From positions 124,001 to 188,000 of the forward strand of contig JADNRX010000062.1 in the NCBI GenBank assembly GCA_015501595.1: a DNA stretch of 64,000 nucleotides, in the 5' to 3' direction. The position numbers and the translations under genes were made by a program. This DNA comes from Hymenopellis radicata (Eukaryota > Basidiomycota > Agaricomycetes > Agaricales > Physalacriaceae). Position 1 is the first letter of the stretch. Each line of letters begins with the position of its first letter. The notes beneath the pieces are model-generated. The model saw nothing but the letters and a program-made list of their open reading frames with translations, did no database searches and was not told the DNA's origin. Below, piece after piece: positions 4,207 to 45,215 of this stretch.

Positions 4207-5759
4207 ATGCAGAAATCCCCAGAAAGCTTCACCTTTACGGTGGGAAAGCTAGGTGAGTCGTCTTCTGCTCATATTGCCTATTTCTTACCCTGTAAACAGA
4301 TGCTGGAATGGCTGTAGGTCTCCATATCATTACACAGCGGCTGATACCAAGTTTCGGAAACAGATTCTCATTGGGGAACGGGCTCATCTCATAGAATTCC
4401 CATCTATCCTGCTTCCGCCTGGCGCGACGGCTGGCTCGATTGTCAGCATTGCTGTAAACCAAAACCACGCAGAAGAGAAACGACGCGAAACCGACTTTTG
4501 GGCATTACAAGACGAAATTTTGAGGGAATTTGGGACGGAAAAGCCGCATGCGCCCGAACTCCAGGTGTGTATACTACGTTATCTCGCTTACCTTTGAAAT
4601 AATCTATTCATTTAGCTACGGCATGTCACTCAAACATCCGTAACTTTGGAATGGCCACCTGTCGTACTCGCAACTGCCAAGCTGCGCTCTCTCGACATCT
4701 ACCGAAACAATGAACGTCTGGCTGCTATCCCTTCACCTTTAACCAACACCTCCACCAAACTCTCTGGATTGCAAACAGACGAAGAATACACCTTCCAACT
4801 CGTTCTCCGCACCTCAGCTGGCACTTTCCCCTCCAATGTAATCCGTGTTCGCACTCATACCATGCAGGACACGTCCGGTATATCCGTCTGCTTTGGTAAT
4901 GTTCAGGATGAGGTCTTGCTCGAGAATGCAAAGATGGCTTTGCGCGAAATGAAGGCTAAATGGAGCGACAAAATCCAAATTGACACGACCCACTTCATCT
5001 GCACAACACCTGCAGCGACTGCCAGTGGCGCTCAGGCTACTGGAAGTTCCGTCGGCGCGCCTGGCGTCGAATATCAGAGGGCGTTACAGCTCAGTATACC
5101 TGTTCTTTATCCGGACTGGATTATCGCATGCCACACCGAGAAGCGGTATGTGTCTCAATTTTTTATTCTATCCGCTCCCTATATACCTTTATAGGATGGT
5201 CCCCATTGGCGCATTTGATCTCAAATCCGACCGACCCGTAGCAGCGCGTTCGCAATCACTTTCCCAAGTAAACGTCAGTCGGTCCCCGACGAGCCCGGTG
5301 CACGCCAACAGGGCATCGATGCCTCCCGCCATGCGTGTCACGTCGCCCTCGTCCCCTCCTCCCGTGTCATCCACGTCGAGCTTTGTCAACCAGGGCACGC
5401 CACCGGCGACGCGGCAGACATTTGAGCCCACGCCCGAGGAGAGTGAAGAACCGGCTCCCGAGCCAACACCGTTGTCAGAGAAGCGGAAGAGCAGGTCGGG
5501 CACGATGAACAAGGAGTTTAGGTTCCCGTCGCCGGTGTCTTCACCAGTTGTGGCGGAGACGCCCGGGCGCAAGTCATCGTTACCTGTGGGAACAACGTCG
5601 CCGCCGCCCGTCCTCCAAGGCGGGATAAAGGGGGACGACACTCCAGCAAGTATAGAGGTTCCACCCCCGCCGCCGATTGAGAAGGAGCGGTCGAACAGTA
5701 CCACGACGGATGATGGCGATGATGATGTGGGTGATACTGTCGAGGTGGATTTGAATTGA
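4207..5759 (+). CDS. CHS5: Chs5-like exomer component (FN3-BRCT protein)
   Basis: Predicted exons are 4207-4252, 4300-4313 (14 bp), 4364-4564, 4616-5145 and 5195-5759, giving 451 aa. The order fits Chs5: an N-terminal dimerisation segment (FTFTVGKL...DAGMA, LIEFPSILLPPG), a fibronectin type III domain (about 85-165, with YRNNERLAAIPSPLTNTSTK), a BRCT domain (about 165-265, with WSDKIQIDTTHF and PVLYPDWIIAC) and a disordered Pro/Ser/Glu-rich tail. In yeast, Chs5 is the scaffold of exomer, a trans-Golgi coat adaptor that sends chitin synthase Chs3 and other cargo to the plasma membrane. The microexon is supported by phase and by restoring the conserved DAGMA-ILIG junction; a longer exon 2 breaks the frame. 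It is the best preserved housekeeping gene here, with no sign of damage. Confidence 0.9.
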
Positions 5760-7482
5760 GTGGTACTTTCTGCTTTTGCACCAAGTGTCTTTTGCTTTAT
5801 AGGGTGGTTAATTTATCCCAGTGCCGTGCACCGCAAGATACGAGAGTTCCTTTTTAAGGAGGCAAGAACGAAAATCCTCGCTGCTTGCGAATCCATTTTG
5901 TAACCTGGAGCCTTTTGCACGTTTCAGCTCATCAGTACAGTAACAGCTTCAACAAATCTGTGCTATCGGAGACTGGCACTCCTTGATTTGCCAACTTTCC
6001 CTTGCTCGCGTATGACTTTGATGGGTGCTTAGCGCTAGCGCTTAGCAGCTGGCCCGGCTTCGTAGGGCGTGTCCAAAACATACATAGGAGATGCTGCCAT
6101 CATAAGATCGAGTCGGTTCTTTGCGTGAGCACTGTCGACTATTCGCTTGACTGTTTTATTAGCATTACACTAATTTCCGCCCCTTCGCCGCCAGATTCAC
6201 CGTCCGATGTGCGCTTCTTTGTCAATGCAACTGGGCTCTAGCTTTCCGCCATACGGGTCCAGCAACTAGACTTTCCATTCAAACAAACCCCTCCACCCAC
6301 TTGAAAAAATGGAGCTCCGTTTCTTCCGATCATCCCCTTCCCTGCGAAGCACGAACTGCCAGAAACCGCATCAGACAGGTAGTCAGAACTTTCAAGTATG
6401 TGCCTTTCTTTTCTTGTTCCTATCTAATGGACCTTTCCCCTAGCGCCCTGCCCTTGCTAAACTTACAAGTCCCAGTGCAACCGCTCGAAAGACAAAGTGT
6501 TACATGTAACCTGGCGGAGGCCTCTCGTTGCTCTTGTGTTTTACGAAGACAAGCATTCTCACGTGTGAAGCGCTCAAAGATGCTTTTCGATGGCGTCTAC
6601 ATGGCGGTGAAACAGCCTGTCATTCATATCACACCGATGACACTGCGCAGAACACGAACATCGTTCTTCCTCTTCACGTCTAAATTTGTTGGCGCTTCAC
6701 AGCGTCCTCGTTTGATGGCTATGCTGTAACTTCGAGTCAGTCATTCCAATGGCGATGAAAGTTGAGGTGGATCCAGGACTCTGGGACTGAATGGGACTAC
6801 ACTTCGCTTCTCCTTGTCACCGGTATGTCTGCCTTCCTTGCATTATGACATTTGGGGTTCTGATGTGGCATTGCATAGGTTTGACGCCGGACCATCTTCC
6901 TTTAACAAATACACCTCATTCTCTAGCTGCCTGGCATGCTGTGACTTAGCGTCGATTAAGCTTACGGCGCCGAATGCCGACGTGCACAACCTTGGGTCTA
7001 GGGTTGCGGAATTGAATAGAACTACGGGCTATCTCGGACACCACAGCTTCGTCTTCTCATTGGTGTCCAAGTTTTCCGTATCGTGCATCGTCGAAAAGTG
7101 CTGATGTGAAGCGGTGCATTGTATAGGCTTGACGCCAAACAAACTTCCTTTCCCAAATACGCCTCTCAAAGCGCCGCATTCACGTACATTCCGGCATGCA
7201 AGATCAGGCGCCTCAGAAGGTCCTTAAGATATCGACTTTCTCCAGCCACCTCTTTTATACATGACTCATCACTTCGAAAACGCACTGGCATTCTGAAGGC
7301 ATTCTGAACGAGTCAGTGATATCGTTCATGTCTGTCCTCCGTGTTCACTTTGCTTCAGCCTTTACATAACAGGTCGCATTGATCCATTCTGCAGTTCAAC
7401 GACATCAGCAAGTATGTGTATTCTCTTTCGCCACAGAGCCTTTCTCATGGCATTTGAAATTTGTAGTTCTTGGTCTTCATCG
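5760..7482. repeat. Non-coding region with diverged copies of IRG-family upstream sequence
   Basis: No gene is supported between CHS5 and IRG copy B. About 6240-6760 resembles 22030-22430 in the same orientation (shared blocks around GAAGCGCT(C/T)AAAGATGCT and GCTGTAACTTCGAGTCAGTCA). About 6950-7480 matches the upstream DNA of IRG copy C (26820-27344) and of copy A. The retrieved unit thus includes promoter-proximal DNA, not only the coding sequence. Confidence 0.6.
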
Positions 7483-8759
7483 ATGGGGGGAATTTGGTCT
7501 TCTGTGTTCGGCGGTAAACCCAAGATGGGTGATAACCCTACGATGAAGAAGATTGATAAGCATCTCAAGCAAGAGCGAGATGCCGCTGACCGCCTCGCTT
7601 CTGAGAATGCCCAACGCGCCGAGGAGGCCGAGCGCGAGCGCCAGGCGGCTGAGGAGAACGCGCGCCAAAGTAAGGAGGATGCAGCACGCAATTGGGAGGA
7701 AGAGGCACGGAATGCCCGCGAAAGCGCAGAGAAGGCTGAAAGGGACATGCAGGCGGCTGATGATCATGCACGCCGCTTCCAGGAAGAGGCGCACCACCAA
7801 GCCGAAGAAGCACGGAAAGCGCGCGAGAGGGCAGAGACCGCAGACCAGGAGAAGCGTCTGGCCGAAGAGGATGTGCGCCTTTTCCGGGAGGAGGCAGAGC
7901 GGCAGAAGGAGCAGGCGCGGAAGGCTCGCGACGACCTCGAGCAGGGCGCTCATCCAGATATTTGGCCTACCCTGGAACAGTTCGAATCCACGAAGGCTCG
8001 CTACCGCTACACGTCCTCCATGGTGCATATCGCCGTAGCTGGTATATCCGGCTGCGGCAAGTCCTCCCTCGTCAACTCGTTCCGCGGGCTATCCCTAAGG
8101 CTTTTGGGGCTGCCCAAACCGGTATCGTCGAGACTACGAAGGAGGTCGCCTCTTACGCGGACCCCGATTCTTCCAAGCCCATCATCTGGTTTGATGTTCC
8201 GGGGGCGGGGACATTGACTGTCTCCGACTGGGACTATTTCAACCGCCAAGGACTCTTCATCTTCGACGCCATAGTCGTGGTGCTCGCGGACCGTTTCTGC
8301 GCCACCGACATCGCGATCCTCAAGGCATGCAAGAAATACTGCATCCCCGCTTACATCGTCAGGTCCAAGTCTGACCGTTACATCGAGGATATGATGAAGG
8401 AAGAAGCTATGGATGAGGAGGACGAGGGCGATGAAGACCATGTTGGCCAGAACAAGGATCATGAAGGCCATGCTGGCAGGTTTGAGCGCGTGCGCCAGGA
8501 ATACGCGGAGAAGACGCGTGGCAACGTCAGGGCTAATCTGAACGAAGCTGGGCTCCCCGACCAAGAGGTTTTCCTTGTTTCGCACTCGGCGTTGTGGGCG
8601 ATTGTCGCAAAGAAAAAGCAGAAGCCCGGTGCTATTGTACTAGATGAGGAGAAATTGTTGAAAGTGATGCTTGGCGACGGAATCAAGCGTCGCTTCAAAC
8701 CAACTCCCGCCTTGTCTTCTATTCTGAATCGGCTCGGTTTGGGTCCCATAGTATCGTAG
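7483..8759 (+). pseudogene. IRG-type GTPase, copy B, single frameshift
   Basis: The start at 7483 (MGG..) matches copy C. The reading runs through the coiled coil and the P-loop (GISGCGKSS) and then leaves frame at about 8092. Compared with copy C, one base is missing just after codons FRGLS. The rest of the G domain continues in the next frame to a stop at 8759, with DVPGAGT (G3) and RSKSD (G4) intact. Repairing that base would give about 425 residues against 434 in copy C. It sits downstream of CHS5, without a CDK8 neighbour. The single small lesion means a recent pseudogene or an assembly error; both fit the sequence. Confidence 0.8.
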
Positions 8760-9202
8760 TAACTTTCAGTACTAGTTTTTGTAACTGAGCATTTATGTGC
8801 GTAGTCGGCTTATGACATCGTTCCATCGTTTCACCGCAATTAGGTAGTTGCTGTTGCTTTTTGTAAAGTTTTAAGTGCTACGGTTCTGCTGAATTTATGA
8901 GAATGGGAGCCTCTCATTTGTCAACACTCTGTGCGTAGATGGAAGGGCGCTAGAGCGAGTTTTTTGTATCGGGGTGATCTCCTCCTCCAAAGCGGGTTAC
9001 AATCTGTTGTCCTTGAGCATGAACACGTTGGCTTCTTCCGATTTTGACGAAGTGCTAGAATCATATCTAGGGTCTCCGTTGACGACTTCCTTTCTTCACG
9101 GAGATCTTGGGATGCCGCTTTCTTTCGACTTGTTGATTCAACATAGAATATAGGATTACACTGGCGAGCGTACTTATCGTAATGATGAACGAACAAACGG
9201 TG
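8760..9202. other. Intergenic region between convergent genes
   Basis: The short 3' flanks of IRG copy B (plus) and the interrupted kinase gene (minus) converge here. I see no further coding sequence. The sequence after the IRG stop resembles that after copy C only for a short stretch. Confidence 0.5.
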
Positions 9203-10488
9203 CTAGTCTGCCATCTGGCGAATCGCTTGCAATTGCTTCTCCGCCTTACGCACATCCTTCTCCATTGATCTCCTGTCCGCTCTTCTCTTTGACTTACTAG
9301 CGTCGAAGTCAGACTTCACAGATAGGCGAATCCCGTAAATTTAACGTACGCAAGTTGTTTCGACTTGGATTTTAATGGCTTCTGACGACCGCCGGTGAGA
9401 CATGTTATGCCCGTATCGTAACAGCGCTTGCAAGTTGTGGGGTCCTTCAAGAAGTTGCAATTTGCTTTGATCTCTCGACAAAAGTTGTCGCATTTCCTGA
9501 AAAGGAACATTTCAGTTCGAATGGAAGGATAGAGTGACAATTGTCTCCTACGTCTTATACTTGCGCATTTTCTCTATATTCATGTTCCCTGAGAGCCGTA
9601 GTACAGGCTCTTCATCGCTACTGTCCAAAACAATTTCCGGCGGTGCTTCGGGAGATGGAGAGCTGTCATCGATTTCATACGGACACTCGCTGGGGACATT
9701 AGTTGAAGGAAACTCCCAGTTGGAAATATTTCCGAGAACCTGTACAACGTTCCTTGCATGGGGGCGCTGTTCGGGATCTGTCGACAAGCAGGACATCACG
9801 AGTGCCCACAGCTCGTCTGAAGGCAGTACCTCAACGGGGGGTCGAGGTGGTTTTTCGTTCGTTACCACCACCGCGGTTATGACGGCGGGATCTTTTTTTA
9901 TATTCGAGTACGGAGGCTGGCCAGTATAGATCTATGATGTCTGTTAGAATGTATAGGAAGCGAGGGACAAGACCTACTTCAATAATGGTGCAAGCAAAGG
10001 CATAGACATCGCTCGCTGCCACTGTAGCATTTTTGAAACGGCCGTAGTCAAGTATCTCTGGAGCTAGCCACCGGAGCGTGCCCTTTTCCGCCAACTCGGA
10101 ACTTGCTGGCATCATAGTTTGGCCAAAGTGGCTGAGCCCGAAGTCCGCTATGCGACAGTTCGAATGCTTATCGACAAGAATATTTGCCTTGGAGAAATCA
10201 TGACTTGGACGCAATGAAAGAATACAGCACATCCTTACTCCTTTAAGGTCTCCGTGAACCACTGGAGGATCCTCCTCGTGCAAATAGCGCATCCCTAAAG
10301 CAATCTGAAAGATCTGAAGGACTCCGTTCGGTTGTGCATTTCGTAAGGGGGAAACAACGCACTGCCTTCAAGCGATCATGATTAGGATTGTTTCGAAGGA
10401 ACGACATGATGTTGCCATTGCGCATCCACGGCGAAATCAGACATAACGGCACGCCAAAGAGAGTTTCGTCAGTGAACCCATAGAATGG
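9203..10488 (-). pseudogene. TKL-like protein kinase with cysteine cluster, 3' part of retrotransposon-split gene
   Basis: Predicted exons, minus strand: 10483-10363 (continuing exon 3), 10313-10239, 10187-9978, 9931-9561, 9496-9350 and 9296-9203. All introns are GT...AG, 46-64 bp, in phase. The kinase domain continues with HGDLKGANIL (catalytic loop), ADFGLS, LAPEIL and WALVMSCLSTDPEQRP, typical of fungal tyrosine-kinase-like kinases. After an acidic linker the protein carries six cysteines (C-x3-C-x6-C-x8-C-x2-C-x6-C), close to a fungal Zn2Cys6 cluster except for the first spacing, then a short basic helix to the stop at 9203. The LTR element abuts the codons for LPFYG. Joined to the 5' part across one target-site copy, the frame is continuous (about 514 codons). 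The split gene cannot make this protein as it stands. Confidence 0.82.
10484..10488. repeat. Target-site duplication, left copy (AATGG)
   Basis: Five bases directly before the 5' LTR, repeated at 20485-20489. Removing the element and one copy restores the kinase reading frame. Confidence 0.95.
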
Positions 10489-10820
10489 TGTGACGGACAG
10501 GAGCGAGTTACTGAATATGGACAGGATTCTCGACCCATGGACACAGCCACTCGCAGTCTAAACGCGAACGGACGCGTAATGTACTTATAGCTCGTAGCTT
10601 CTTGTAGTTTCTCTCATTGCTTTCCGTAGTATATTACCTATTTACTATTACTACTTACACAGGACTCTGGACTTGTATATAAGCTTGCAGAACTCGTGTC
10701 AGTAACACAGAACAATCTTACCACCCAACCCAATCATCTCGAACGAACCAAACAACCAACAACTTCTCCTTTTACCTCGTGTGGAACTAGACGTGTATCC
10801 TCAGTCACGCCTATCCCACA
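10489..10820 (+). repeat. 5' LTR of Gypsy element
   Basis: 332 bp, beginning TGTGACGG and ending CCCACA. A TATA-like TATATAA lies near 10677-10683, so the U3/R border probably falls shortly after it. The 3' LTR at 20153-20484 is the same sequence apart from one base near 10749. Confidence 0.96.
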
Positions 10821-11014
10821 TATTTTTGATTGACCGCGGAACTCTTTCTCGATCACCACCCTCGAGAACTCGCTACAGTTGGACAACCCCGGTCTGATCA
10901 ACCAGGACTTCCCTCGGCGACAACTCATCTCATCTATTCTCATTCACCCTTATCTTTAATCTCTGCTTATTATTAATCAGCCTCTATTCTACGAATCAAA
11001 TCTAATCTAGTAAC

Positions 11015-14000
11015 ATGTCGACTATGACACTCCGGAGTACCAGCCGCCGAAACCCGTTCGCGTCGACGAACACGGGGAACCAGAACGCGGCTCAAGGTGA
11101 GCAAACAGCTGCACCTAACCAAGTCGAAAGCATTTCCCAGGAACAACACGGGAAAATCCTCGTTCCAGATAGTGAAGTCCCCGAGACTCCTAGTCTGCGT
11201 ACCGACTCTGTCAAGATTGAGAGTCAGGGAATCCCCGAAAGGGAGACATCTGAGCCGAAGGAAGGAAACTCCTTCTCAGAGATCAGCCAGAGTGCACTCG
11301 ATGGGAGTTACTCCCTAGAGTACAACTACGATGGGCACGCACCATCAGATTATGACCCGACATCAGGTCAAATCCCTTGGACATCTGCGCAGCCACGGCG
11401 CCGACACAGCAGTTCCAACCGGTCCATGCGTAGCAGTAGTCCTGTACCTCGTAAATCTACATCAAATAGATTTAGTGTGTTGAGCCCGGAACAAGAAACC
11501 GCGGTTCACCAAGCCGAAGAGAATATGCGTCCGGAAGAACAAGAGAGAATCAACCGTCGCACTCGAAAGGTTACTATCGAGGAAGTAACCGACGAAGGTT
11601 CCGCATCCTCGAAAGAGGAAGAAGCTGGCCAGGTCAAACAACCGGAGGCAGGACCCTCAAAGGACAAAGACAAAGGAGTAGACCCACGAAACTGGGGTGC
11701 TGCTGACCTTGATGAACATGATCTTGATATTGATGGGCAGCGAGCCGCCCTCGAATCCTTCAAGATCCAGAAACAACTTGAAGTTTCTGAAGAAAGTGAT
11801 AACGAACAAGAGGATCTCGCCACGGAAATTGAGATCTCATCAGCCACTGTCAGCGACGAAGACTCCGAGCCGGTCAAACGCAAGAAGCACAAGACCAAGA
11901 AGGTGAAGAAATCTAAGAAATCTCGCCGCGAGAATTCAGAACCCATGTCGGACCTAATGGAGACCCATATTCGTGACGTCGTCCACGATCGCCCTAAGCG
12001 CACCAAAGAAAAGGCGTCGAAATCGAGTTCTGGTAAATCCAAGAGTTCGGCACCATTGGATCCAGTTAGCCAAGTCGCACCTGGCAGTCACCTTGCCCGT
12101 GTCCTGAAAGTTAAGCCGAAGATAAGCAAGCCGTCTCGTAAATCCTCGCGTAAACCATCAGACAGTTCGAGTAGTTCATCAGACAGTTCTGATGATGAGT
12201 CTGACTCGAGTTCGTCATCGTCGGATTCCAGTAGTTCAAGCTCTGATAGTGATAGCTCGGATTCTGACAGTTCGAGCTCGAGCTCATCCAGTTCATCCAG
12301 CTCGGACTCGGACTCGACTGTCCGACATAAGAAATCCCGAAGCAAGAAGCACAAACATGGAAAGAAACATCGTGGCCACAAGAGCAAGTCGTCTAGATCG
12401 AAGCACAAGCATCGTCGCGATAACCGACCTCTCTTGAAGCCGGATCCTCCTGAAAAATACAATGGGGCACCGGATCTTCGCGTGTTCATGAAGTTCATAA
12501 CGGACGGAACTGCTTACGTGCGTGATGGTCGTGTCCCAAAGAGGAATCGAGTATTAAAACTGTCCCGATTCCTAACAGGTACGGCACAAGACTTCTACGT
12601 GTCTACCGTATCGGACGACCCAAAGGGCTGGCGTCTCCGTCAGTTCTTCGTCGCGCTTTATAACTATTGTTTTCCATTAACTTTCCGACTTGATCAACGC
12701 GCTAAGTTGAGACGTGCCTTTCAGAATGACCGAACCGTTCGGCAGTACCTCGGAGAGCTTCGTGAACTCTTCAACACTGTTGGTATTGTTGACGAGCGGG
12801 AGAAGGTCCACAAGCTTTGGTCCGGATTAAACAAGAATATCCAGCAAGGCTTGTGGCGCGAAAAGTTGAATCCGGAAGTGTCTTCTTATGAAGACGTGGA
12901 ACGACAGGCAGAACTGGTTGAACTGATAGAGAACGTCGCATCTGGAAATAGCGGCCCGAAGAAGAAATCTAAGGGACTATTAGTACATGAATTAGCACCG
13001 AAAACGGATACAGCTCACCATTTCGCACGCGGTTCATCCCCGAAGACTTTCAGGACGTCGAAGAAGTTCAAATCGTACAAGAAAGGACGACCGGAATCAA
13101 GGGAACACGGCAAGAACACATATTCGTCACAAGGACAGCAGAAGAACGGATCTGGAAACAAGTTTAACAGACCTACTCAACGCGCGGAGTTATCTGAGAA
13201 GGAAAAGGAGGAACTCCGAGCAGCCGGGAAGTGTTTCCGCTGCAAGGAACCCGGACACATGGCCAGACAGTGCCCACAGGGAAAGTTCGTCTCTGGAGGC
13301 AAGGGTAACGCACCGCCGGGGATCCAGATCTCGGGTGTCAAATTTGACATGGAAGGTCTTCGCCAGATGGCCAAAGACTCCGAATCAATCGTCTTGAACT
13401 CTGTACAGTTTGATGAGAGTCTGTTCACGGACGACATATCACTCACCGTGGAACCGGACACCTCTGAGGATAACGGCACTGATTTGATGTTGCCGGATTA
13501 TCTTCTGTACGTTCTGATTAGCCTCGACTGGGACTACATGTCTCCAGACAACGACATACCTTATTGGCACCCCATTCGTCGCGCTCTGCAGGAGTATGGG
13601 ATCGATTTGCTAGAAATCGTGCAGCAAAACCTTTGGATCCTGGACGGATTTCAGCCGGTGCTACCGGACACGCTTACTACCGACACCTTGGTGGTTATAC
13701 TATCTCATATTACTGAGGAGGCCTCTATGAGTGATGAACACATAGAGACTCACCGTGATGATAGTCATTTGCCATCAGAGTACCTGGAGGTCCGGCGTTT
13801 CCTTGAAGAGTACCTGGACAGAAATCAGTTCTTCAGCGATCTCACCAACGAAATTAGCAGTGTCAGAGAACTTACCGAGCTGGAGAATCAACATGACACA
13901 TCAGACTCGGAAGACGAGGACGTCAACTCGGACTCAGACTACGATATTCCGGATCTACTTGATGGATCTGACTCAGAAGATGAGGAAGACTCACCAAAAG

Positions 14001-17000
14001 AGCACACATTTGTAGAAGACATCCAGGAGGATGCTCTTGAGCAATCAGATGAGGTCCCCGCTGGACCGTACAGTTTTAGTACTTCGTATGGTGACGGTTC
14101 ATCTGAAGTGTCAGAGGTTACCTCGGTCCTTGGACCCTATCCGAGCCATCCGAACGAGGAGATCGTCGCGTTTGTACCCAAGGACTATCCGTCGTGGGAA
14201 TCGAGGCGAGGAATCTGGCGGTATCGGAGGTTCAACGTTCGACAGTTCGGACTCTCTGATGACCCGCCGCCTCGCGCTATAGGTAACTTACTTGCAAACA
14301 CAGCGGAATACCACCTCAACAGCTGTGCACCTTACCCAGGCGAAGCGGAACCAATATTGACGAACTGGGATAGAATTATTGTCTATCGAGTATCACCAAC
14401 ACATCATGTTATAGTAGACTCATACTACTATGACACCGAGCTACCGTCCGAAATAGAAATCCGAACTAGTTGGCTTGAGACCCCGGACTTCTGTATCGTC
14501 CAGTGGTACGCAGATGAACGCGGTCGAATGAACGGGCTTACACCACATCTCGACTGGCCCGTAGGCGCACCTTGGAACGGTGCTGGCCGAATGGGCGACG
14601 CATTACTTGAATCAATTGAAGAACTTCTAATAATTCATCAGCCTTTCGCCGGTGACTATGTAACACCTCACAAACCTAATGTTCGGCGATTTGAGGTACG
14701 GCGTTCCTGGCCAGACGAAGAATACTTCGAAATCCGAGATAATCACCTAGATTTCGTTATCAAACTGGAAGTTGACCTGATGGAAAACGGACTTTTTGAT
14801 CTTGCACGATGGTACCGAGTACAACTGGCGAAAGTCTGGCGCCGGCATGACTGGGTCGATTTCTGGGAGGACATTGGTGAGGAATATGATCTGCCAATGT
14901 TCGGGTACTTAGACTGGGAAGTTGAATTTCGAGAAGAACTTTGGCTAAACTTACCTCAGTCGTTATACATCACGGCACACGCACCAGTCACGAACGGCGT
15001 GGATCACTCACCTGATCCTTCCGATGAAGAACCAGGCGCGTCAACGGGGCTTGAGGTCGGCGGGGTACAGATTCCGAGGACGATGATCCCGGCCGTTCAA
15101 CGAAACGCGTCTACAGTCAAGGACGCGGGTCGTCGCATCCCGAAGACACTCGTAATCCGCTGCTATATCAACGAGAGCCCAATTCGTGCTCTCATTGACA
15201 CTGGATCAATGGGTGACTTCCTATCAACAACAGTTGCTGATCAGCTTCGCGTTGAAAAGGAAGAGTTAGCAACACCCTTACCGTTACAGCTCGCCGTTCA
15301 AGGCTCGAGATCCAAAATCAATTCACGAGCGAAAGTACTATTTAAGTACCAAGGCATTAACGAGTCGCGATACTTCGACATCGCGAATGTGTCCAACTAT
15401 GATGCCATTCTCGGGACACCATTCCTGTTCCAGCATGCTGTCACTGTTGGATTTAATGATGCGAAGATCATCATAGGGAGCAACAGAAGCTTACCTATCA
15501 TTGGAAAGGCAGTGACTCAGCTCGCGTCGAGAGCTGCTGTCATCTATGAGGCCGGGTTAGATATGTACCGGAAGGAATTAATAGAGTACGCCCGACCTCT
15601 ATTCCTCAAGGCACACCAAACGCCGCTGCCACCACTTCGTGACATCAACCATACGATACCGCTCATCGACGAGTCGTTAATCTTGCCTTGGCGCCCGTCT
15701 CGATGTCCAGAAAAGTTTATGACCGAATGGGCAGCCAAGCGCGACGCGTACATCAAGTCAGGTCGTTGGCGGATGACCAACGCGACAAACACGGTCCCAA
15801 TGCTATTGATACCTAAGGTAACTGATAAGACAAAGTTACGCGTTGTCGTAGACTTACGCGCGCGGAACGCCAACACACGGAAGATGGCATCACCAATCCC
15901 GGTAATAGAAGGTATTCTTCGACGCGTAGCGCGCGGAAGGTATCGCTCGCTGATGGACAGCAGCGACGCGTACGAACAAGTACGCGTTGAACCCGCGCAT
16001 GTGGATAGAACCACGGTATCAACACCTGATGGCAATATGGTCAGTCTGGTGATGCAGCAGGGTGACTGCAATGCACCCGCTACGTTCCAGGCTCTGATGA
16101 ATCACATATTCTCACCTTATATAGGACGTTTTATGGACGTGTACCTTGACGACATAATAGTCTATTCAGATACCCTAGAGGATCATATGAAGCATGTTAA
16201 AATATGTATCGACGTGTTAAGAAGGGAAAAGTTCTACCTTGGGGAACACAAAGTGTTCTTCCTCGCGAAAGAAATCAAGGTACTCGGCCGCATCATCGAT
16301 AAGGACGGAATCCGGATGGATCCTGACAAGGTCGATTCAGTTCTCAAGTGGCCAACGCCGACGAATCGCGACTTGCTCAGGGGATTTCTCGGCTCCGTCG
16401 GTTATCTTGCAGATGACGCGGGAGCCGTGCGTATACCAATGGGCGTCTTGAGCGCGATTACGGGAGACACGGTTCCATTCCGTTGGGGATACACGGAACA
16501 ACGAGCCTTCCAAGATGTCAAAGATTGTATTGAGAAGGCACGAAATCATAAGCGAAAGCCACTAGATTACTCACCTGATGCGCCACCAGTTTGGATGGTC
16601 ACAGACGGATGCAGTACTGGTGTCGCAGGTTTCGTATGTCAAGGCGATGATTGGCGGAAAGCGCCTATTGCGGCGTTCTACTCTGCCAAGCTGAATTCAA
16701 GTCAGCAGAATTACACAGTTCTAGAAATTGAGATGTTAGCAGGTGTGGAGATGATGCTACGGCATCGCGACATACTACAGGGACTCCGGTTCACTTGGGT
16801 CACTGACCACAAGGCCTTGATTTACCTCCCGACACAGAAAGAACTGAAGGGACGTCAGGCGCGCTGGCTTGAGAAGATCGGCGAGTTCGACTTCACCGTA
16901 AAGTATGAACCCGGCGAGTCGAACATCGTTGCTGACGCGTTGTCTCGAATATACTCGAACGACGCGCCAGGGACTGTACGTACGCCTAGTGAATATACAT

Positions 17001-20000
17001 ATCATGATGTAGTTGATGACGACTCACTTGATAAGGATGACACGCCGGTCGTCGTTGGTCTTGAAGCCGAATCGCGTCTGCTAGATCTAAATGCAGCGCT
17101 AGTAAGCGAGACAAAATATATCAATGATATGGAACTAACCTCAATGGTCCTGAGAAGTGCCGGCAAACCCGAAACCAGTACGCAGTTTGCCCGTCGTGTT
17201 AAGGATCGTTTCGTTCTTCGAGGCCCTCGAGAACGAAAGGAGGGCGAGGGTACCGACCCGAAAACCTCAAATCCAACATCAGTACCAAGTTCGCCGCTAA
17301 AGAACGACATTACCTCGAGTCTGAAGGAACTAGAGAACGAAAATCATGAGGCTAGCGTATCAGAAGTACCTAGGCAACCGGAGATCAGCAAAATACGCGA
17401 GACAGGGCTTCACGAAAGCCTACAAGGACAAGCAACTATACCTAAAAAGGAAACTTTAAAGACGGAGAAAGATCCCGAACTTGCAGATCCTGTCGCGGAT
17501 TCCGGTTCGCTGTTTGATGTCTTGTCTGGAGGGCGCGCTGGTATCAATCTTGAGAACGAGATCCGAAACAAGTACGACTCGGATCCTGCATTTCGCGCCA
17601 TCTTGAAGAAACCCAAGGATTTCCGAAATTTTGACGTTGAAGATGGCCTTGTCTATATCCGGATGGCCGACGAGCGAAAGCTTCTATGCATTCCTGGTCT
17701 ATTCCTGAAAGAGAGAAGTATCAGGGAAATAGTGATTGATGAAGCACATTCGTTACTTGCTCACCTTGGCAGTCGGAAAACCTTGCTGTACTTGCGAGAG
17801 TACGTCTGGTGGAAAACAATGGTTAAAGACGTTGAATCGTACTGCAAATCGTGCATTACCTGCTCGAAAACGAAGTCAAGTAACCAGAAACCATATGGAC
17901 TTCTGCACCCGCTCGGTCCGCCCGTACGACCGTGGGATGTAATCGGTATCGACTTCATGGACCCGTTACCTGTGTCGACGAACAGGGATGGGTCGTTTGA
18001 CATGCTAGCCGTCATCGTTGACCACCTAACTGGCATGGTTCATCTTGTGCCGGGTCGAATAAATTACAAGGCCCGCGATGTGGCGGAACTTGTCTTCGCG
18101 GAGGTGTACAAACACCACGGCCTGCCTAAAGCAATAGTTAGCGACCGCGACACGTTGTTCACAAGTACCTTTTGGAACCACTTACACAAACTAATCGGCA
18201 CGAAACTCAAAATGTCAAGCGCGTACCATCCGGAAACTGACGGTATGACTGAGCGCGCAAACCGAACCATAGGCCAGATGTTACGGCAGTGCATACGCCC
18301 AGATCAGAAGGACTGGGTCGCGCGATTACCTGCAATTGAATTCGCAATTAATCTAGCCCGTTCAGAAACAACAGGATACTCACCGTTTTTCCTGAACTCT
18401 GGTCGAGTTCCGAGATCCATGCTGTGGGATTCGGCTAGCAAAACCGAATATCCCGCAGTCCGAGTATTCGCGCAGCGAATCAAACAGGCAGTAATGGCGG
18501 CGCACGACAGTATATTGGAAGCGCGCGTCAAGCAGACACGTGACGCGAACAGGAAAAGAATACCTGTTCCGTTCAGCGAAGGAGACTTGGTATACATATC
18601 TACAAAGAATATCACCTTCCCAAAAGGATTAGCTCGAAAATTGGTGCCCAAGTATATTGGACCTTACCAAATTTTGAAAGATTTCAAGAACTCCTCCTTC
18701 AGGATCGATATTCCTGCAATTTTGAGTAAGCGCGGCGTTCATAACGTGTTCCACGCGTCTTACCTTCGCGTACATCACCCTAACGATGATAGGCTGTTCC
18801 CTGGACGCGCCGAAAACCAAGTGGCGCCGTTCGAGGATCTCCAAGGCGAGTGGGCAGTGGATAAAATCCTAACCCATTCTGGTAAAGGCCAAAACCTTAT
18901 GTTCAAGGTTCAGTGGAAGGCCGGAGACGTGACTTGGCTCCCTGTGGCGCGAACCGAGCACCTGGATGCGCTGCAAGATTATCTTGAGGCGCTGGGAGTT
19001 TCTGATATGTCGCAATTACGAGAGACGGGCGGCGAAGATACCGCAGACGGAGAGGACGCGCAAGTGCTATACGCAAGTGGAATTACATTTAAAACATGTG
19101 ATGAAGCTGTTCGTGAATATAAATACGAGCAGGGAGAGCAATTAGAGGCAATAAACTCACCAAACGCCCTACTTAGCTCTCCAATCCCAATTTACCACCA
19201 TTCCGTCCCACTTCCTTTATCTCTTTGTCAACACATGCAGCCCCCTCGCCCACCAACGCCGTTTCCCGATGATCTCGCGACCCCGACAATGGCTCCGCCG
19301 CGCTACGCGACGGTGGAACCGGAACAGGTCGACACGGCGACACGTCCGTATGGATTTCACCACCCGGACTTCTATCGACATGGTGGCGGTTATTCACTAC
19401 GTCCTCGTGGTGATGGCGCTACTCGCGTTGTTGTTGACGACGCGGCGGTTCAGAGGTGCCTCCAGAACAACGAGGATTTAAACGCGAACGGGTATAATCC
19501 TCGCGTTCTCCTCGACGATGCCTACTTCCATTTCGCCGACACCTACAATAGTCTTAACCTGGGTGACGGATTCATTACTGTCAACTTACCTGAGGGTACT
19601 ATTAACCGTCCTCGCGTTCTCGTCGATTCCAATGCTTTCCTTCCATCCGACGACACCATGACCATCGACCTTGATACCATCCCTGAATCCGCCACAGAGT
19701 CCATCTCATCCGCTGCTGCCGTCGTTGGAGACGACGACGATGTCGGCTTTGAAATTTACTCAGCAACTGGGCGTACTCCATCTCCTCCCCGTGGTCGTCG
19801 CACCACTCGTATGCCAAATGGTCGGTTCCTCCGTCAGCAATTGGAGCGGAGAGACAGAGAGGATTCCATTAATTTCCTCCTGTGGAATGTCGTTGATCAG
19901 GCCAAGCGCGAGAAGGAATGGAAGTTGAAGTGGAAGACGAAGAGAGAAGAGAAGAAGCGTGAGAAAGCCCTGAACCGACTCGCCGGTGCTCGTGCCACTG

Positions 20001-20113
20001 CCCATGGTAGGGATGCATACTCCAAGAGGTACTTTGACGACGACGACACGTCGTCTGCTGGGGTTGCGATCGCGAGTGGGAGCGGAAGGCAGGTGCATTT
20101 CGGAGGTAATTGA
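11015..20113 (+). CDS. Gag-Pol polyprotein of Ty3/Gypsy element (3,032 aa)
   Basis: One ORF without a gag/pol frameshift. Order: a charged, Ser-rich N-terminus with poly-Ser/Asp and Lys/His runs (about 370-470); a retrotransposon gag region (about 490-650); a CCHC knuckle CFRCKEPGHMARQC (about 740); about 600 acidic residues I do not recognise; aspartic protease ALIDTGSMGDFLS (about 1395); reverse transcriptase with YLDDII (about 1710); RNase H (VTDGCSTG, about 1860); integrase HHCC (about 2240-2280) and catalytic D, D35E (GIDFMD, SDRDTLFT, MTER, about 2312-2412); and a chromodomain-like segment (WAVDKILTHS...FKVQWK, about 2610-2650). About 350 further residues follow, Pro/Asp/Arg-rich and unlike the usual end of a chromovirus Pol. 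Typical Gypsy polyproteins are about 1,300-1,700 aa, so the extra length comes from the acidic insert, the long N-terminus and the tail. Confidence 0.95.
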   Translation: MSTMTLRSTSRRNPFASTNTGNQNAAQGEQTAAPNQVESISQEQHGKILVPDSEVPETPSLRTDSVKIESQGIPERETSEPKEGNSFSEISQSALDGSYSLEYNYDGHAPSDYDPTSGQIPWTSAQPRRRHSSSNRSMRSSSPVPRKSTSNRFSVLSPEQETAVHQAEENMRPEEQERINRRTRKVTIEEVTDEGSASSKEEEAGQVKQPEAGPSKDKDKGVDPRNWGAADLDEHDLDIDGQRAALESFKIQKQLEVSEESDNEQEDLATEIEISSATVSDEDSEPVKRKKHKTKKVKKSKKSRRENSEPMSDLMETHIRDVVHDRPKRTKEKASKSSSGKSKSSAPLDPVSQVAPGSHLARVLKVKPKISKPSRKSSRKPSDSSSSSSDSSDDESDSSSSSSDSSSSSSDSDSSDSDSSSSSSSSSSSSDSDSTVRHKKSRSKKHKHGKKHRGHKSKSSRSKHKHRRDNRPLLKPDPPEKYNGAPDLRVFMKFITDGTAYVRDGRVPKRNRVLKLSRFLTGTAQDFYVSTVSDDPKGWRLRQFFVALYNYCFPLTFRLDQRAKLRRAFQNDRTVRQYLGELRELFNTVGIVDEREKVHKLWSGLNKNIQQGLWREKLNPEVSSYEDVERQAELVELIENVASGNSGPKKKSKGLLVHELAPKTDTAHHFARGSSPKTFRTSKKFKSYKKGRPESREHGKNTYSSQGQQKNGSGNKFNRPTQRAELSEKEKEELRAAGKCFRCKEPGHMARQCPQGKFVSGGKGNAPPGIQISGVKFDMEGLRQMAKDSESIVLNSVQFDESLFTDDISLTVEPDTSEDNGTDLMLPDYLLYVLISLDWDYMSPDNDIPYWHPIRRALQEYGIDLLEIVQQNLWILDGFQPVLPDTLTTDTLVVILSHITEEASMSDEHIETHRDDSHLPSEYLEVRRFLEEYLDRNQFFSDLTNEISSVRELTELENQHDTSDSEDEDVNSDSDYDIPDLLDGSDSEDEEDSPKEHTFVEDIQEDALEQSDEVPAGPYSFSTSYGDGSSEVSEVTSVLGPYPSHPNEEIVAFVPKDYPSWESRRGIWRYRRFNVRQFGLSDDPPPRAIGNLLANTAEYHLNSCAPYPGEAEPILTNWDRIIVYRVSPTHHVIVDSYYYDTELPSEIEIRTSWLETPDFCIVQWYADERGRMNGLTPHLDWPVGAPWNGAGRMGDALLESIEELLIIHQPFAGDYVTPHKPNVRRFEVRRSWPDEEYFEIRDNHLDFVIKLEVDLMENGLFDLARWYRVQLAKVWRRHDWVDFWEDIGEEYDLPMFGYLDWEVEFREELWLNLPQSLYITAHAPVTNGVDHSPDPSDEEPGASTGLEVGGVQIPRTMIPAVQRNASTVKDAGRRIPKTLVIRCYINESPIRALIDTGSMGDFLSTTVADQLRVEKEELATPLPLQLAVQGSRSKINSRAKVLFKYQGINESRYFDIANVSNYDAILGTPFLFQHAVTVGFNDAKIIIGSNRSLPIIGKAVTQLASRAAVIYEAGLDMYRKELIEYARPLFLKAHQTPLPPLRDINHTIPLIDESLILPWRPSRCPEKFMTEWAAKRDAYIKSGRWRMTNATNTVPMLLIPKVTDKTKLRVVVDLRARNANTRKMASPIPVIEGILRRVARGRYRSLMDSSDAYEQVRVEPAHVDRTTVSTPDGNMVSLVMQQGDCNAPATFQALMNHIFSPYIGRFMDVYLDDIIVYSDTLEDHMKHVKICIDVLRREKFYLGEHKVFFLAKEIKVLGRIIDKDGIRMDPDKVDSVLKWPTPTNRDLLRGFLGSVGYLADDAGAVRIPMGVLSAITGDTVPFRWGYTEQRAFQDVKDCIEKARNHKRKPLDYSPDAPPVWMVTDGCSTGVAGFVCQGDDWRKAPIAAFYSAKLNSSQQNYTVLEIEMLAGVEMMLRHRDILQGLRFTWVTDHKALIYLPTQKELKGRQARWLEKIGEFDFTVKYEPGESNIVADALSRIYSNDAPGTVRTPSEYTYHDVVDDDSLDKDDTPVVVGLEAESRLLDLNAALVSETKYINDMELTSMVLRSAGKPETSTQFARRVKDRFVLRGPRERKEGEGTDPKTSNPTSVPSSPLKNDITSSLKELENENHEASVSEVPRQPEISKIRETGLHESLQGQATIPKKETLKTEKDPELADPVADSGSLFDVLSGGRAGINLENEIRNKYDSDPAFRAILKKPKDFRNFDVEDGLVYIRMADERKLLCIPGLFLKERSIREIVIDEAHSLLAHLGSRKTLLYLREYVWWKTMVKDVESYCKSCITCSKTKSSNQKPYGLLHPLGPPVRPWDVIGIDFMDPLPVSTNRDGSFDMLAVIVDHLTGMVHLVPGRINYKARDVAELVFAEVYKHHGLPKAIVSDRDTLFTSTFWNHLHKLIGTKLKMSSAYHPETDGMTERANRTIGQMLRQCIRPDQKDWVARLPAIEFAINLARSETTGYSPFFLNSGRVPRSMLWDSASKTEYPAVRVFAQRIKQAVMAAHDSILEARVKQTRDANRKRIPVPFSEGDLVYISTKNITFPKGLARKLVPKYIGPYQILKDFKNSSFRIDIPAILSKRGVHNVFHASYLRVHHPNDDRLFPGRAENQVAPFEDLQGEWAVDKILTHSGKGQNLMFKVQWKAGDVTWLPVARTEHLDALQDYLEALGVSDMSQLRETGGEDTADGEDAQVLYASGITFKTCDEAVREYKYEQGEQLEAINSPNALLSSPIPIYHHSVPLPLSLCQHMQPPRPPTPFPDDLATPTMAPPRYATVEPEQVDTATRPYGFHHPDFYRHGGGYSLRPRGDGATRVVVDDAAVQRCLQNNEDLNANGYNPRVLLDDAYFHFADTYNSLNLGDGFITVNLPEGTINRPRVLVDSNAFLPSDDTMTIDLDTIPESATESISSAAAVVGDDDDVGFEIYSATGRTPSPPRGRRTTRMPNGRFLRQQLERRDREDSINFLLWNVVDQAKREKEWKLKWKTKREEKKREKALNRLAGARATAHGRDAYSKRYFDDDDTSSAGVAIASGSGRQVHFGGN

Positions 20114-20152
20114 AGAAGACTTCCGATCCAATCACAAGTCTTGGAGGGCGCA

Positions 20153-20484
20153 TGTGACGGACAGGAGCGAGTTACTGAATATGGACAGGATTCTCGACCC
20201 ATGGACACAGCCACTCGCAGTCTAAACGCGAACGGACGCGTAATGTACTTATAGCTCGTAGCTTCTTGTAGTTTCTCTCATTGCTTTCCGTAGTATATTA
20301 CCTATTTACTATTACTACTTACACAGGACTCTGGACTTGTATATAAGCTTGCAGAACTCGTGTCAGTAACACAGAACAATCTTACCACCCAACCCAATCA
20401 TCTCGAATGAACCAAACAACCAACAACTTCTCCTTTTACCTCGTGTGGAACTAGACGTGTATCCTCAGTCACGCCTATCCCACA
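20153..20484 (+). repeat. 3' LTR of Gypsy element
   Basis: 332 bp direct repeat of 10489-10820, with the same TG...CA ends. It is immediately followed by the second AATGG. Confidence 0.96.
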
Positions 20485-20489
20485 AATGG
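20485..20489. repeat. Target-site duplication, right copy (AATGG)
   Basis: Five bases directly after the 3' LTR, identical to 10484-10488, as expected for Ty3/Gypsy integrase. Confidence 0.95.
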
Positions 20490-21120
20490 TAGAATATGAG
20501 CATGGCTGAGCTGGCCCCAAATCAACGCTTCGGTGCCCCACGCCTGGAAAGTCAGATGAGTCATGAGACTACACTAAGTTGGAACGGTACGGCACACCTT
20601 GAGGCGTTCCGAGGAGAGACCACTGTTAATTTCGTACCGTCGCAGTACTTTAAAGCAGACGACCCGTCTCTCAAAGGTTCCTTTATAGATATCCTTCACG
20701 AATGATAGACGTTAGCAAGTCAATCCTGATAGATGTCATGGCGCTCACCGCATATCCTCCGCCCGCTATGCGCTCTTTGTTGCGGCATTCAACATCGGTT
20801 AATAAGAAGGAGGAGGGCAGAACGTCGTGATTCTTCCGCAGCTCCCTCAGGCATTTCATACACGTTGTCCGACAGGTGGGATCGGTAGACGCGTGGCGGA
20901 GCTTCTGCTCGACGTCGAATGTGATGGTTTGAGTCAAATAACTGTGGGGAGAGACGAGTAGACGCACGCTTTGGAGGGTGTCGATGATTTCCTGTGCCAC
21001 TTCCGGACAAACACGTCCTACACCCTTCCATGGCGACTCAGATGTCTGCGATAGTAACATGTCGACCTTCCGAATGACTTCTTCAAGCTCGTCCTCGGGG
21101 TTTATATTACTCCAGTCCAT
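20485..21120 (-). pseudogene. TKL-like protein kinase, 5' part of the retrotransposon-split gene
   Basis: This is the other half of the gene at 9203-10488. Exon 1 is 21120-20749 (an upstream in-frame ATG at 21159 is possible), exon 2 is 20693-20598, and exon 3 runs from 20543 to the insertion point. Exon 1 encodes a helical N-terminal region of about 110 residues and ends in the Gly-rich loop (IAGGGYA). Exon 2 opens with DIYKG and carries the ATP-binding Lys (VCFKVL). Exon 3 carries the alphaC Glu (TEALIW) and HILPF. All catalytic elements are present across the two halves, so the host gene was probably working when the element arrived. The 5 bp AATGG next to the LTR is the target duplication. 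A stub transcript from this promoter would enter the element's 3' LTR antisense. Confidence 0.82.
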
Positions 21121-21159
21121 TTGGTAGGTAGGTAGGTAGAATCGGCACAAGGTCCCCAT

Positions 21160-22699
21160 GAGGAACGGCCGTTTGTGGAAATGTTATGGCGGGCGAGACC
21201 CGATTTCCATTTGGTGGATGGGGGAGCGATGGAGCAGGAAGACCAGGCTGTTGAGGCGTGTACGGTAAGAATTGTTCTCGCACGTGTTGAGTCGAATACA
21301 ATGATCACAGAAGTGCCTTCGCAAGGTAAAAATATACCAGCTGTGGGTTGCCCGAGGTGCTGGGCTGTAGCTGTAAAAAGTCCCAGAACTGTGAGAGGGA
21401 TAGTAGGACCGTATGGTGGTGAAAATGATGAAATTATTTCGCTACAAGCACAGGAGGATAAAAGCAAAACAGCGCGCAACAGTTAGCCAGTGACGCTGTG
21501 AAATCAAGTTGAAGGTGGGAAGGAAGATACGTTCCGCATTTGGCAGGTTGCTTTTTCTTCCTTCCGTCATCATGCATCATGGCAGCCTCGACTTGGGTCC
21601 TCTACGTCGTACGGGCGCTTCAGGCGTTCAACGTTCAGGACGGGCTCCTCAAGGCCTCACATCCGGTACGTCGTCCTGCGTATCGACGATAATTTCATTT
21701 TTCGCCTCCAGGACCAATTGACAATATCTTTCGCACTACGCGACAAGGACGTATTGGAATCGGATTATCGGCGCCCATTTCCAGCTAGAGCTTCACGGAG
21801 AGGATGTCAAGTCTGCGTGGGCGATGGCGCGACGCCCTGCGAAGCAGATTAGGTGCGCTTCCCCTTAGGTGGCTGTGCAGCATTCTTCCTTCTTCTACTC
21901 AAGCAGGTAGTCAGATCCTAGATGGCTTCTCCTACTATGCTACCTCCTGGCTTTGTTTCCTTTCTCGTCTCGGACGAATCTTGCGCTTGCATTCTTTCTA
22001 GCTCATATGTGACTTTCGCTAGCTAGACCTTCCATTACCAACACGTCCGTCATCAAACCGCCCTAAAGACACCCGGAAAAAAATATGGAGCTCGGCTCAT
22101 TCTCATCATCAAAATGTTCCCCGAACGACAGAAGTAGCCTTTCGTTACTCTGCTGTCTTACGAAGGCTTCAAGCTGTTAAAGATTCTCTCACGTGCGAAG
22201 CGCTTAAAGATGCTATTGGATAAGTACATGACGGTGAGACAGCAGGAGACAGCCTGTCATTGCCCTCACATCACAGATGTCACATCATGTATTCGCACTG
22301 CGCAGAACGCGAACATGGTTCTTCCTCTTCACGCCTAAATTGATTGACGCTCCAAGCGTCTTCGTTTGATGACTATGCTGTAACTTCGAGTCAGTCAAGC
22401 CAATGGCAATGAAGGCTGACGTGCGCAAGGCTCGCATCATCTACTGTCTATCTGGCGCGGGTGCACTAGTCAGTGATTCTCAGGCATTGTTTTCCGTGAA
22501 TCTGATATCTTTCTACGCTGTTCGTCCCTAAGTCGCATTACGCTTTCTAGTAGGTAATTCCAGGATCATCGTAATTTGTTGAGTATGTCTTTACTGTTCG
22601 GCAAAAACTTTCCCCCTCATAGTGTGTTAAACTTGTAGGATTTCGTGGATGGAGCATTGCGTGGACCTTCTTCATGCCGTCATGCTAGTTCAGGTGTTC
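21160..22699. other. Intergenic / decayed duplicated DNA
   Basis: No intact gene. 21570-21830 has a short coding-looking stretch (from an ATG near 21577) with a plausible small intron, but it ends quickly and I do not recognise it. About 21882-21945 is an inverted match to 4020-4105, and 22030-22430 is a diverged copy of 6240-6760, the DNA lying upstream of IRG copy B. The region therefore consists of old pieces of the same duplication units. Confidence 0.5.
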
Positions 22700-22819
22700 C
22701 GTGCCAGAGAGAATGAGCGAGACGCCGCACTCGAACTTGTCGCTTCCGAGAATGCAGAACGTGCTGAGAGAGCCGAGCGCGCCGCACAGGCGGCTGAGGA
22801 TCGCGCAACAGCCACGTAG
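22700..22819 (+). pseudogene. IRG coiled-coil relic
   Basis: A 39-codon stretch reads as part of the N-terminal coiled coil of the IRG copies (RDAALELVASENAERAE; copy C has RDAAERVASENARRAEE) and then meets a stop. It is preceded by diverged IRG upstream sequence. There is no G domain after it, so this is an old, truncated copy. Confidence 0.7.
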
Positions 22820-22969
22820 GATTATGAGCAAGATCTGGTAGCTTGTCGTTGAGTTTACTTGTTTTACCCTGGCGCTTGATTGTCCTTTTTGAATTTATAT
22901 TCTGCGATGAAATCTGATTGTGAAGACTTGCACCTTGAGGTGATAAGAGGCTCCATTCGATCGAAGTTA

Positions 22970-23035
22970 TATGCGAAGCGACGTCCGAAGAGATCATATC
23001 CTTGTTGGCATTGTATTCGCATCACATTGGCCGAA
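22970..23035 (-). pseudogene. CDK8 exon-5 relic
   Basis: A short block similar to minus-strand CDK8 exon 5 (the stretch encoding [18 protein letters not shown]; nucleotide match around ATCATATCCTTGTTGG). Flanking coding sequence is lost. Confidence 0.55.
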
Positions 23036-23119
23036 GTTTCACCTTTACCACCGTCAGTTTTCTTTGCACATCAGACATCTTCAACCACATCATAGATTTC
23101 TTTTTCTACAACAAGAAAG

Positions 23120-24103
23120 ATATCTCTTCGTCGTCTACGCATGAACGAAGTTCTCCAGAACAACAACGAACCGGACACCCCGGCTCCCATTGGAGGTTTT
23201 TCCTGGGAAGCACGTCAGCACCGACCTTTAGATTCGTCGTCTACGCACTCAAGCGGAATGCGTACGCTCAACCATCACGTCGACTCGTGCCCTGCATGGA
23301 GCATCACCAGTGCACCTGGACGAGAGCGCGGCTACTCGTCAGGACGGCTGCGTGGGTGTCGCCTGGGACGAGTGCGTGAGTGTCAGCGAGAGTCTCCCTG
23401 CTTATTAGGACAGCCGGTGTCGTGTCACTGTGGCCGCGTCCAGAAGAGGGCAGCTCGCCAGTTAGTCGGTTGAGTGGGGTGCTGCAAGTTTATTCGTGTG
23501 GGTGGTCGGATGGGAGCCTCTGTGCGGGCTGTCACGGGCGTCGACCGGGACAGTTCGCGTCTAAGCCGTTTCTGTTTCGGTGTGAGCGAGACGCTGTAGA
23601 CTGTGGCTTCTGTCTTGAGGCAAGCGAGACATATCTGACAGTGTGCGGGGTGCGGGGGGTCCCCGCAGCCATCTTAAAAAGAACATTCAATCCGGCTTAT
23701 TGGGATGGCTGCCATGGGGTCTGGTAGTCGTCCGTCACTCATCACGCAGTGTATGCAGGCGACGGGAACTTGAGTACCCACTCAAATGTGACATTGTGTT
23801 GGTGACCGCGAGCGTGTGGCCGGGACACGTCGGCGCGGAAACACGACTGAAACTATAAAGTTACAGGAGTGTTAGCCCCAACTCATACTCATACTCATAC
23901 TTACCGTTCGCGAGCAACAAATATCAAACGCATGTTCAATCTGCATCTTGTCCAGCACGCACAAGACTTAGTAACGATTTAAAACGCTTCAGGCGTTGGC
24001 GCATACCTAAGAGACTAGTCAATACCTTCTCTATATGCATGCGGATGAGCAGTCGTTCGTCGAAGCCGTTCTAAAGACAACTTATAATTACTCCTTACGA
24101 AAA
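23120..24103. other. Unassigned region, GC-richer
   Basis: About 1 kb with overlapping short ORFs in several frames and no recognisable domain. It contains a short run of the hexamer-like repeat ACTCAT near 23881-23899. I find no gene, RNA or terminal repeats that explain it. Confidence 0.4.
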
Positions 24104-24360
24104 GTCATACATCACGAACTCCAGACACACTGCTCAATATACAGCGCCTTCATCAACTGCGTAATGTACTAGCTTTTCACCGGTGTTCTCTGCCTCCATT
24201 CATGCCATATACTCTATCGCCCGCTTGTCGCCCGCCGATAATCAAACGGCGTGTTCAGCTCGCTAGTCTCGGACTCATCTTTCAAACTAAATTCACAAAA
24301 CGTGCCGTTGTAAGGCGACTACCTGAACCGTCCGAGATCCTTGGAACGTCTGAAGGCTGA
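24104..24360 (+). pseudogene. CDK8 exon-3 relic, heavily decayed
   Basis: The sequence retains the order of CDK8 exon 3: KVIHHE, a stop where QLFNG is expected, LCLHSCHIL, then degraded sequence with indels and EILGTSEG near the end. It is far more diverged than the copy at 24685-25927 and lies in the opposite orientation, so it comes from an older duplication. Confidence 0.6.
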
Positions 24361-24684
24361 CGGAGGAACGAGAAATCACAGAGAACTCTGTGGTGGTTGT
24401 GCTGGGTATCCTTGAGATCTTACTCCATGCCGCTCCCCCGGTTCGGCTTCTCTTAGGTTAGAACATCACCGACTTGAAGCGGACTGGAAAGGTCGTTGTT
24501 GCCCATAGTTACCCTCAGCTGGGGGCTTTCTACCTCCAAGGTATTCTAGCCACAGGCCATGTTCCCGATATCATTGGCGTTCTAGGCGGCATCCCGAGGA
24601 ACACGGTCGCCCGAGGGCAGTCCGTTCCATCCATCGTCGAGTGGAGCGGGTCATCGAAAGGGGTGTGAGAGTGGTCGTCGGCGC

Positions 24685-45009: not shown

Positions 45010-45112
45010 TAGGTTCCTGTTCGGTGCTGACAGAGATCTAGGATGTGTAGCATGGACGACACCCTGCCTAAAAATACTCAATCGCGATACACTTAATATA
45101 GCACTGCTCTGC

Positions 45113-45215
45113 TAGTACTGGTCCATGCGGACTCTTACCGCAAGAGCTTCTTGATCTCATCATTTTCTGCCTCAACGACGATAAAGCCGGTCTTCTGTCG
45201 TGCGCCCTCTTTCCT
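45113..45215 (+). pseudogene. F-box-like gene fragment
   Basis: Nucleotides match the F-box start of copy 2 (CTCTTACCGCAAGAGCTT, then TCATCATTTTCTGCCTC) for about 90 bp. They then switch abruptly to sequence resembling 35410-35580, so the fragment is chimeric. Confidence 0.7.

Follow-up and report, generated by a model that had tools for sequence, protein, structure and literature searches.

A Ty3/Gypsy retrotransposon within a kinase gene of Hymenopellis radicata, and an empty copy of the insertion site in the same assembly

In a stretch of 64,000 nucleotides of the Hymenopellis radicata assembly GCA_015501595.1 (the window, which is part of the 195,760-bp contig C985), we found a kinase gene that is split in exon 3 by a 9,996-bp Ty3/Gypsy LTR retrotransposon, and on another contig, C119, we found an uninterrupted copy of the same gene. 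We regard it as very probable that the element inserted on one haplotype after the two haplotypes had diverged, making that allele null and leaving the other allele still encoding a kinase domain. An earlier note, made from the window alone, had read the two gene halves as one kinase gene split by a recent Gypsy insertion with AATGG on both sides, and had proposed that other strains may carry the empty site; the reading was borne out, and the empty site is present in the very same assembly (75.5 Mb in 1,405 contigs), with a single AATGG.

The element and the interrupted gene

The coordinates of the element and of the gene are given in Table 1. Both LTRs begin with TG and end with CA, and their sole mismatch is at LTR position 256 (C/T). 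The short target-site duplication typical of Ty3/Gypsy elements flanks the element in the window, and one copy of it is found in C119. Within the long open reading frame, Pfam matches place reverse transcriptase (RT) at residues 1599-1759, RNase H at 1858-1958 and the integrase H2C2 domain at 2234-2288, so that the integrase lies downstream of RT and RNase H. A match to the rve core at residues 2311-2406 scored 17.3 bits, under the Pfam cut-off of 32.6, and a stretch at the integrase C-terminus looks chromodomain-like by eye, although Pfam Chromo gave no hit there at E 0.1. With TG...CA LTRs, a 5-bp duplication and the order protease-RT-RNase H-integrase, the element showed every defining feature of the Ty3/Gypsy group (Metaviridae) that we tested. 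The LTR pair, the 5-bp duplication and a continuous empty copy together are far beyond chance, and they speak against misassembly, so we set both aside.

Table 1. Features of the split kinase gene and of the retrotransposon, in window positions
Feature	Position	Strand	Remarks
Ty3/Gypsy LTR retrotransposon	10489..20484	+	9,996 bp, antisense to kinase gene; based on LTRs, duplication, protein domains, absence from C119
5' LTR	10489..10820	+	332 bp; 1/332 differences from 3' LTR
3' LTR	20153..20484	+	332 bp
Gag-Pol-like open frame, single, 3,032 codons	11015..20113	+	Zinc knuckle, protease, RT, RNase H, integrase H2C2; observed only
Target-site duplication AATGG, left	10484..10488		Sequence
Target-site duplication AATGG, right	20485..20489		Sequence
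Kinase exon 1	20749..21120	-	ATG at 21120; C119 match starts at window 21047, remainder 5' off contig C119
Kinase exon 2	20598..20693	-	Splice model
Kinase exon 3, upstream part (3a)	20485..20543	-	Reading on into the LTR gives F-V-G, then stop
Kinase exon 3, downstream part (3b)	10363..10488	-	Splice model
Kinase exon 4	10239..10313	-	Ends in HGDLKG
Kinase exon 5	9978..10187	-	DFG, APE
Kinase exon 6	9561..9931	-	Unspliced stop is TAG 9550-9548, as in GenBank protein P0001
Possible kinase exon 7	9350..9496	-	Cysteine-rich tail
Possible kinase exon 8 (earlier note's model)	9203..9296	-	Absent from C119
Window-only segment, no counterpart in C119	9022..9374		About 353 bp; CAT common to the C119 junction

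The six introns over the two gene halves are all GT...AG, 46-64 nt long and in phase. The alignment of C119, 95.4% identical over window positions 21047-20479 and 92.9% over 10489-9375, is continuous, and CCATT occurs once where the two parts meet. Exons 1-6 of C119 have the same structure as the window halves with no joining needed, exon 1 being cut by the contig end. That the halves form one gene when the element is removed is also seen in the homologs: all eight aligned proteins that reach the junction, out of 120 listed among 2,360 hits, run straight through it, and none is broken there (five are from other species and three are H. radicata paralogs; a ninth aligned protein is P0001, the truncated annotation itself).

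The insertion lies within the L-P-F-Y-G codons, past the N-lobe lysine and ahead of the catalytic loop. The element's integrase would have made a 5-bp staggered cut inside these codons, duplicating AATGG and interrupting the N-lobe before the catalytic loop. A host transcript running on into the antisense LTR would meet a stop after three codons, so that the protein expected from it has about 178 residues and lacks the catalytic loop. The filled allele would thus probably be null, and the other allele would still encode a kinase domain. The knock-out that had been claimed from the window stands as to the broken exon 3 and the read-through stop; loss of function is what these features predict.

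In GenBank the 3' half stands by itself as a 'kinase-like protein, partial' of 266 residues (P0001). The edge of the LTR encodes residues 1 and 2 of this protein, and over 261 residues, up to M-R-K, it matches the 3' half in the window exactly. The 'partial' gene is what came of an insertion lying beside an unpurged second haplotype. In favour of a split gene that is still expressed, with the element removed from transcripts or with an LTR promoter driving the 3' half, there is this annotation. We give that reading very little credence: the entry appears to be no more than a gene prediction, sense read-through stops after three codons, nothing points to splicing across the element, and an isolated kinase C-lobe is without the ATP-binding lysine.

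The protein encoded on C119 and the 3' half in the window both score above the curated Pfam cut-off for a kinase (PF07714/PF00069; E 6.4e-43 and, for the 3' half alone, E 1.2e-35), and the 5' half alone has no Pfam match at E 0.1. The kinase motifs are a GGGYAD glycine loop, the K in VCFKVL, HGDLKGAN replacing HRD, DFG and APE. Every kinase motif is thus present, as had been stated, but some are variants. Comparison with solved structures confirmed a TKL/TK-like kinase fold and nothing further. The AARN motif of tyrosine kinases is absent, with HGDLKGAN in both copies. Judged by its sequence, the gene resembles the FslK kinases, which PMC3937382 describes as fungi-specific and expanded in Agaricomycetes; the likeness is that of a PF07714-type agaricomycete kinase without the AARN of true tyrosine kinases.

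A second haplotype and the relative age of the insertion

Stretches of C119 match the neighbours of the kinase gene in the window, which are genes resembling an interferon-inducible GTPase, CHS5 and a CDK kinase. Only C985 and C119 carry the CHS5-like gene in full, an 86-bp fragment being the one further match in the assembly, and C119 is therefore most plausibly the other haplotype. The kinase 3' half is likewise found at two places. Each of three other loci that we tested has a partner contig at 96-99%; among them, window positions 43793-49287 have theirs on contig C115 at 96.3 and 96.6%. The two full places of the CHS5-like gene and the C115 partner of another part of the window suggest that both haplotypes are represented in the assembly. 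The simplest reading is that these are the two haplotypes of a dikaryon, and we infer that the strain is one; the main text of PMC8480192 is without the term 'dikaryo'.

If C119 were instead a paralog lying in the same nucleus as the window's contig, only one of the two gene copies would carry the insertion, which could then be homozygous. The window does hold a 95% inverted duplication of neighbouring genes, the CHS5-like block is inverted in C119, the identity over the kinase stretch (93-95%) is below that of the partners at other loci, and window positions 21048-24600 are matched elsewhere by repeats and fragments only, the longest being 610 bp at 100% on C457. We nevertheless consider a paralog quite improbable, in that the CHS5-like gene is full in two places only and the kinase is in two, the same neighbour genes are on both contigs, and the three other loci also have their partners at 96-99%.

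The insertion can be ordered in time against the divergence of the two copies. The LTRs differ at 1/332 positions and the introns of the two alleles at 14/319 (Fisher p 3.6e-4); synonymous sites show about 26 (26.5)/282 differences (p 1.3e-8 against the LTRs). With the LTR divergence far below both the intron and the synonymous divergence, the insertion is therefore much younger than the split of the copies; LTR identity can also persist through gene conversion. Between the alleles, dN/dS is 0.37 over 411 codons of exons 1-6, with dN below dS (p 4.5e-4), which therefore indicates constraint on the gene for most of the copies' separation. Taken together, these comparisons of sequence indicate that the insertion hit a constrained gene after the haplotypes had diverged.

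In years, a rate of 1.3e-8 would give 0.12 My (0.003-0.65). With a rate of 1.05e-9, quoted in PMC4905642, the estimate is 1.4 My (0.04-8.0). Between them the two rates allow absolute ages from 0.003 to 8 My, and we rely on the relative age alone. The description of the insertion as very recent holds relative to the haplotype split, and is not secure in absolute years.

The empty allele, the 3' end of the gene and known parallels

The empty allele on C119 is not plainly ancestral, because it lacks the 353 bp listed in Table 1 and Arg replaces Gly at the start of its glycine loop. A gene that was already decaying, in which the insertion would be neutral debris, would also show copies that differ near the 3' end, and the dN/dS of 0.37 is not very low. 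We counted 143 exon-level matches to PF07714 in the assembly (138 of 414 candidates were scored, and the figure takes in kinases of other types as well as the two haplotypes), and redundancy is therefore likely. Prior decay is nonetheless unlikely in our view, as exons 1-6 are free of stops and frameshifts in either half and in C119, and dN is significantly below dS. More speculatively, the strain may be compound heterozygous, with one haplotype destroyed by the Gypsy element and the other carrying lesions of its own (the 353-bp 3' loss and the Gly-to-Arg change), so that no fully ancestral copy of a previously constrained kinase is left, with the family being pruned one haplotype at a time by an element family that still moves; we offer this only as a doubtful extension of the insertion on one haplotype.

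The 3' end of the kinase gene, exons 7-8, is uncertain. A model of eight exons and about 514 codons had been proposed from the window. Its exons 1-6 agree with C119, and its total is reproduced arithmetically if exon 7 ends at the donor GTACGT, followed by a 53-nt intron and exon 8 (a 36-nt intron 7 was rejected, since it breaks the frame). Exon 8 is unproven: the segment that would hold it is missing from C119, and this ending is one among many possible 3' ends, GenBank P0001 stopping instead at the exon-6 TAG. Over 39 homologous codons of exon 7, dN is 0.067 and dS 0.138 (ratio 0.49), and the two length differences in the exon 7 region are both multiples of three, so exon 7 fits a coding tail, unproven as that is. 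We found the exon 7 tail at no other place in the genome (two matches, which are the two copies themselves, with four candidates scored), and it is absent from the eight aligned homologs.

Two other readings of the tail were dropped. An apparently fast-evolving tail (dN 0.22 over 44 codons) was an artefact of residues aligned past the 353-bp break. The cysteine spacing in C119 looked right by eye for a Zn2Cys6 domain, and neither the C119 nor the window protein has a Pfam Zn_clus match at E 0.1.

Pleurotus ostreatus PC15 and PC9 are reportedly the two nuclei of one dikaryon. PMC4905642 reports that up to 50% of transposable element (TE) insertions are polymorphic between the two, and that 21 genes are silent in the allele with a TE no more than 1 kb away but active in the allele that lacks it, nearly all of them beside Gypsy elements; two of the 21, beside Gypsy elements, are described as protein kinases. 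Nucleus-specific Gypsy insertions with silenced neighbours are thus already documented in a mushroom, and the H. radicata locus is a well-resolved new example. It differs in the place of the insertion, since the P. ostreatus survey counted elements up to 1 kb from a gene, whereas the H. radicata element lies inside a coding exon. Paired monokaryon genomes are also available for Phlebopus portentosus (PMC12411881), where the comparison is genome-wide.

H. radicata (Physalacriaceae) is described in PMC8480192, which deposited strain IJFM A160, as a degrader of decayed wood, and GCA_015501595.1, of that strain, served as the reference for 18 re-sequenced strains in PMC10847261. No report on retrotransposons of this species was found in the literature searched, and the locus is therefore probably undescribed there. 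It is a clean knock-out of natural origin for which a single public assembly supplies both the filled and the empty copy, and it can be used as a heterozygous marker and as a test of dosage or dispensability for a kinase of a kind that is expanded in mushrooms. The kinase insertion leaves general understanding unchanged.

Other copies of the element and the surrounding window

A search of the assembly found the LTR at least five times at no fewer than three loci, so the family is low-copy. A second full-length copy, at G000:C962:245721-255707, has LTRs with 0/332 differences and the duplication GCCTT. Its left flank has a 98% partner on C1325, where its two flanks adjoin and overlap by 5 bp, as they would at an empty site; each of the two full-length copies found thus appears to be present on one haplotype only. 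Compared with the window copy in 500-bp bins, the body of the C962 element is a mosaic of about 88-100% identity, which suggests recombination between element copies. A third copy, on C526, is 5'-truncated and covers element positions 7800-9996. Homology between C526 and C577 reaches to about 1 base from the LTR edge of this copy, and its other flank has no match within the 10 kb of C577 that were compared. At three LTR positions, both LTRs of the window copy differ from the LTRs of C962 and C526.

We observed other, possibly mobile, sequence in the window. A second Gypsy-like pol frame is on the minus strand at 61200-63866, in an AT-richer stretch at the window end. Positions 23292-23901 (610 bp) are 100% identical to G000:C457:37896-38505, in a repeat region with many weaker copies, and are perhaps another recently moved element.

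Positions 1-3242 and 24698-27931 form an inverted duplication at 95.2% that holds a CDK-like kinase segment and part of an interferon-inducible-GTPase-like gene. Frames that match Pfam IIGP (interferon-inducible GTPase) at 7414-8759 and 27315-28649 (E 8e-16 and 2.1e-25) are duplicated around the kinase, in a mushroom. The CHS5-like block (CHS5_N, fn3_2 and BRCT; window 4028-5871 against L007 4333-6175) is inverted relative to its neighbours in C119, which is either an inversion between haplotypes or an assembly error. Where positions 43793-49497 align to C115, the latter has about 1.66 kb extra near window 45810, and positions 49556-52400 match C115 at 94% in the opposite orientation. Further on, there is a long open frame with a MYND zinc finger at its end (52452-54155) and a tandem array with a repeat unit of roughly 78 bp (59152-59429).
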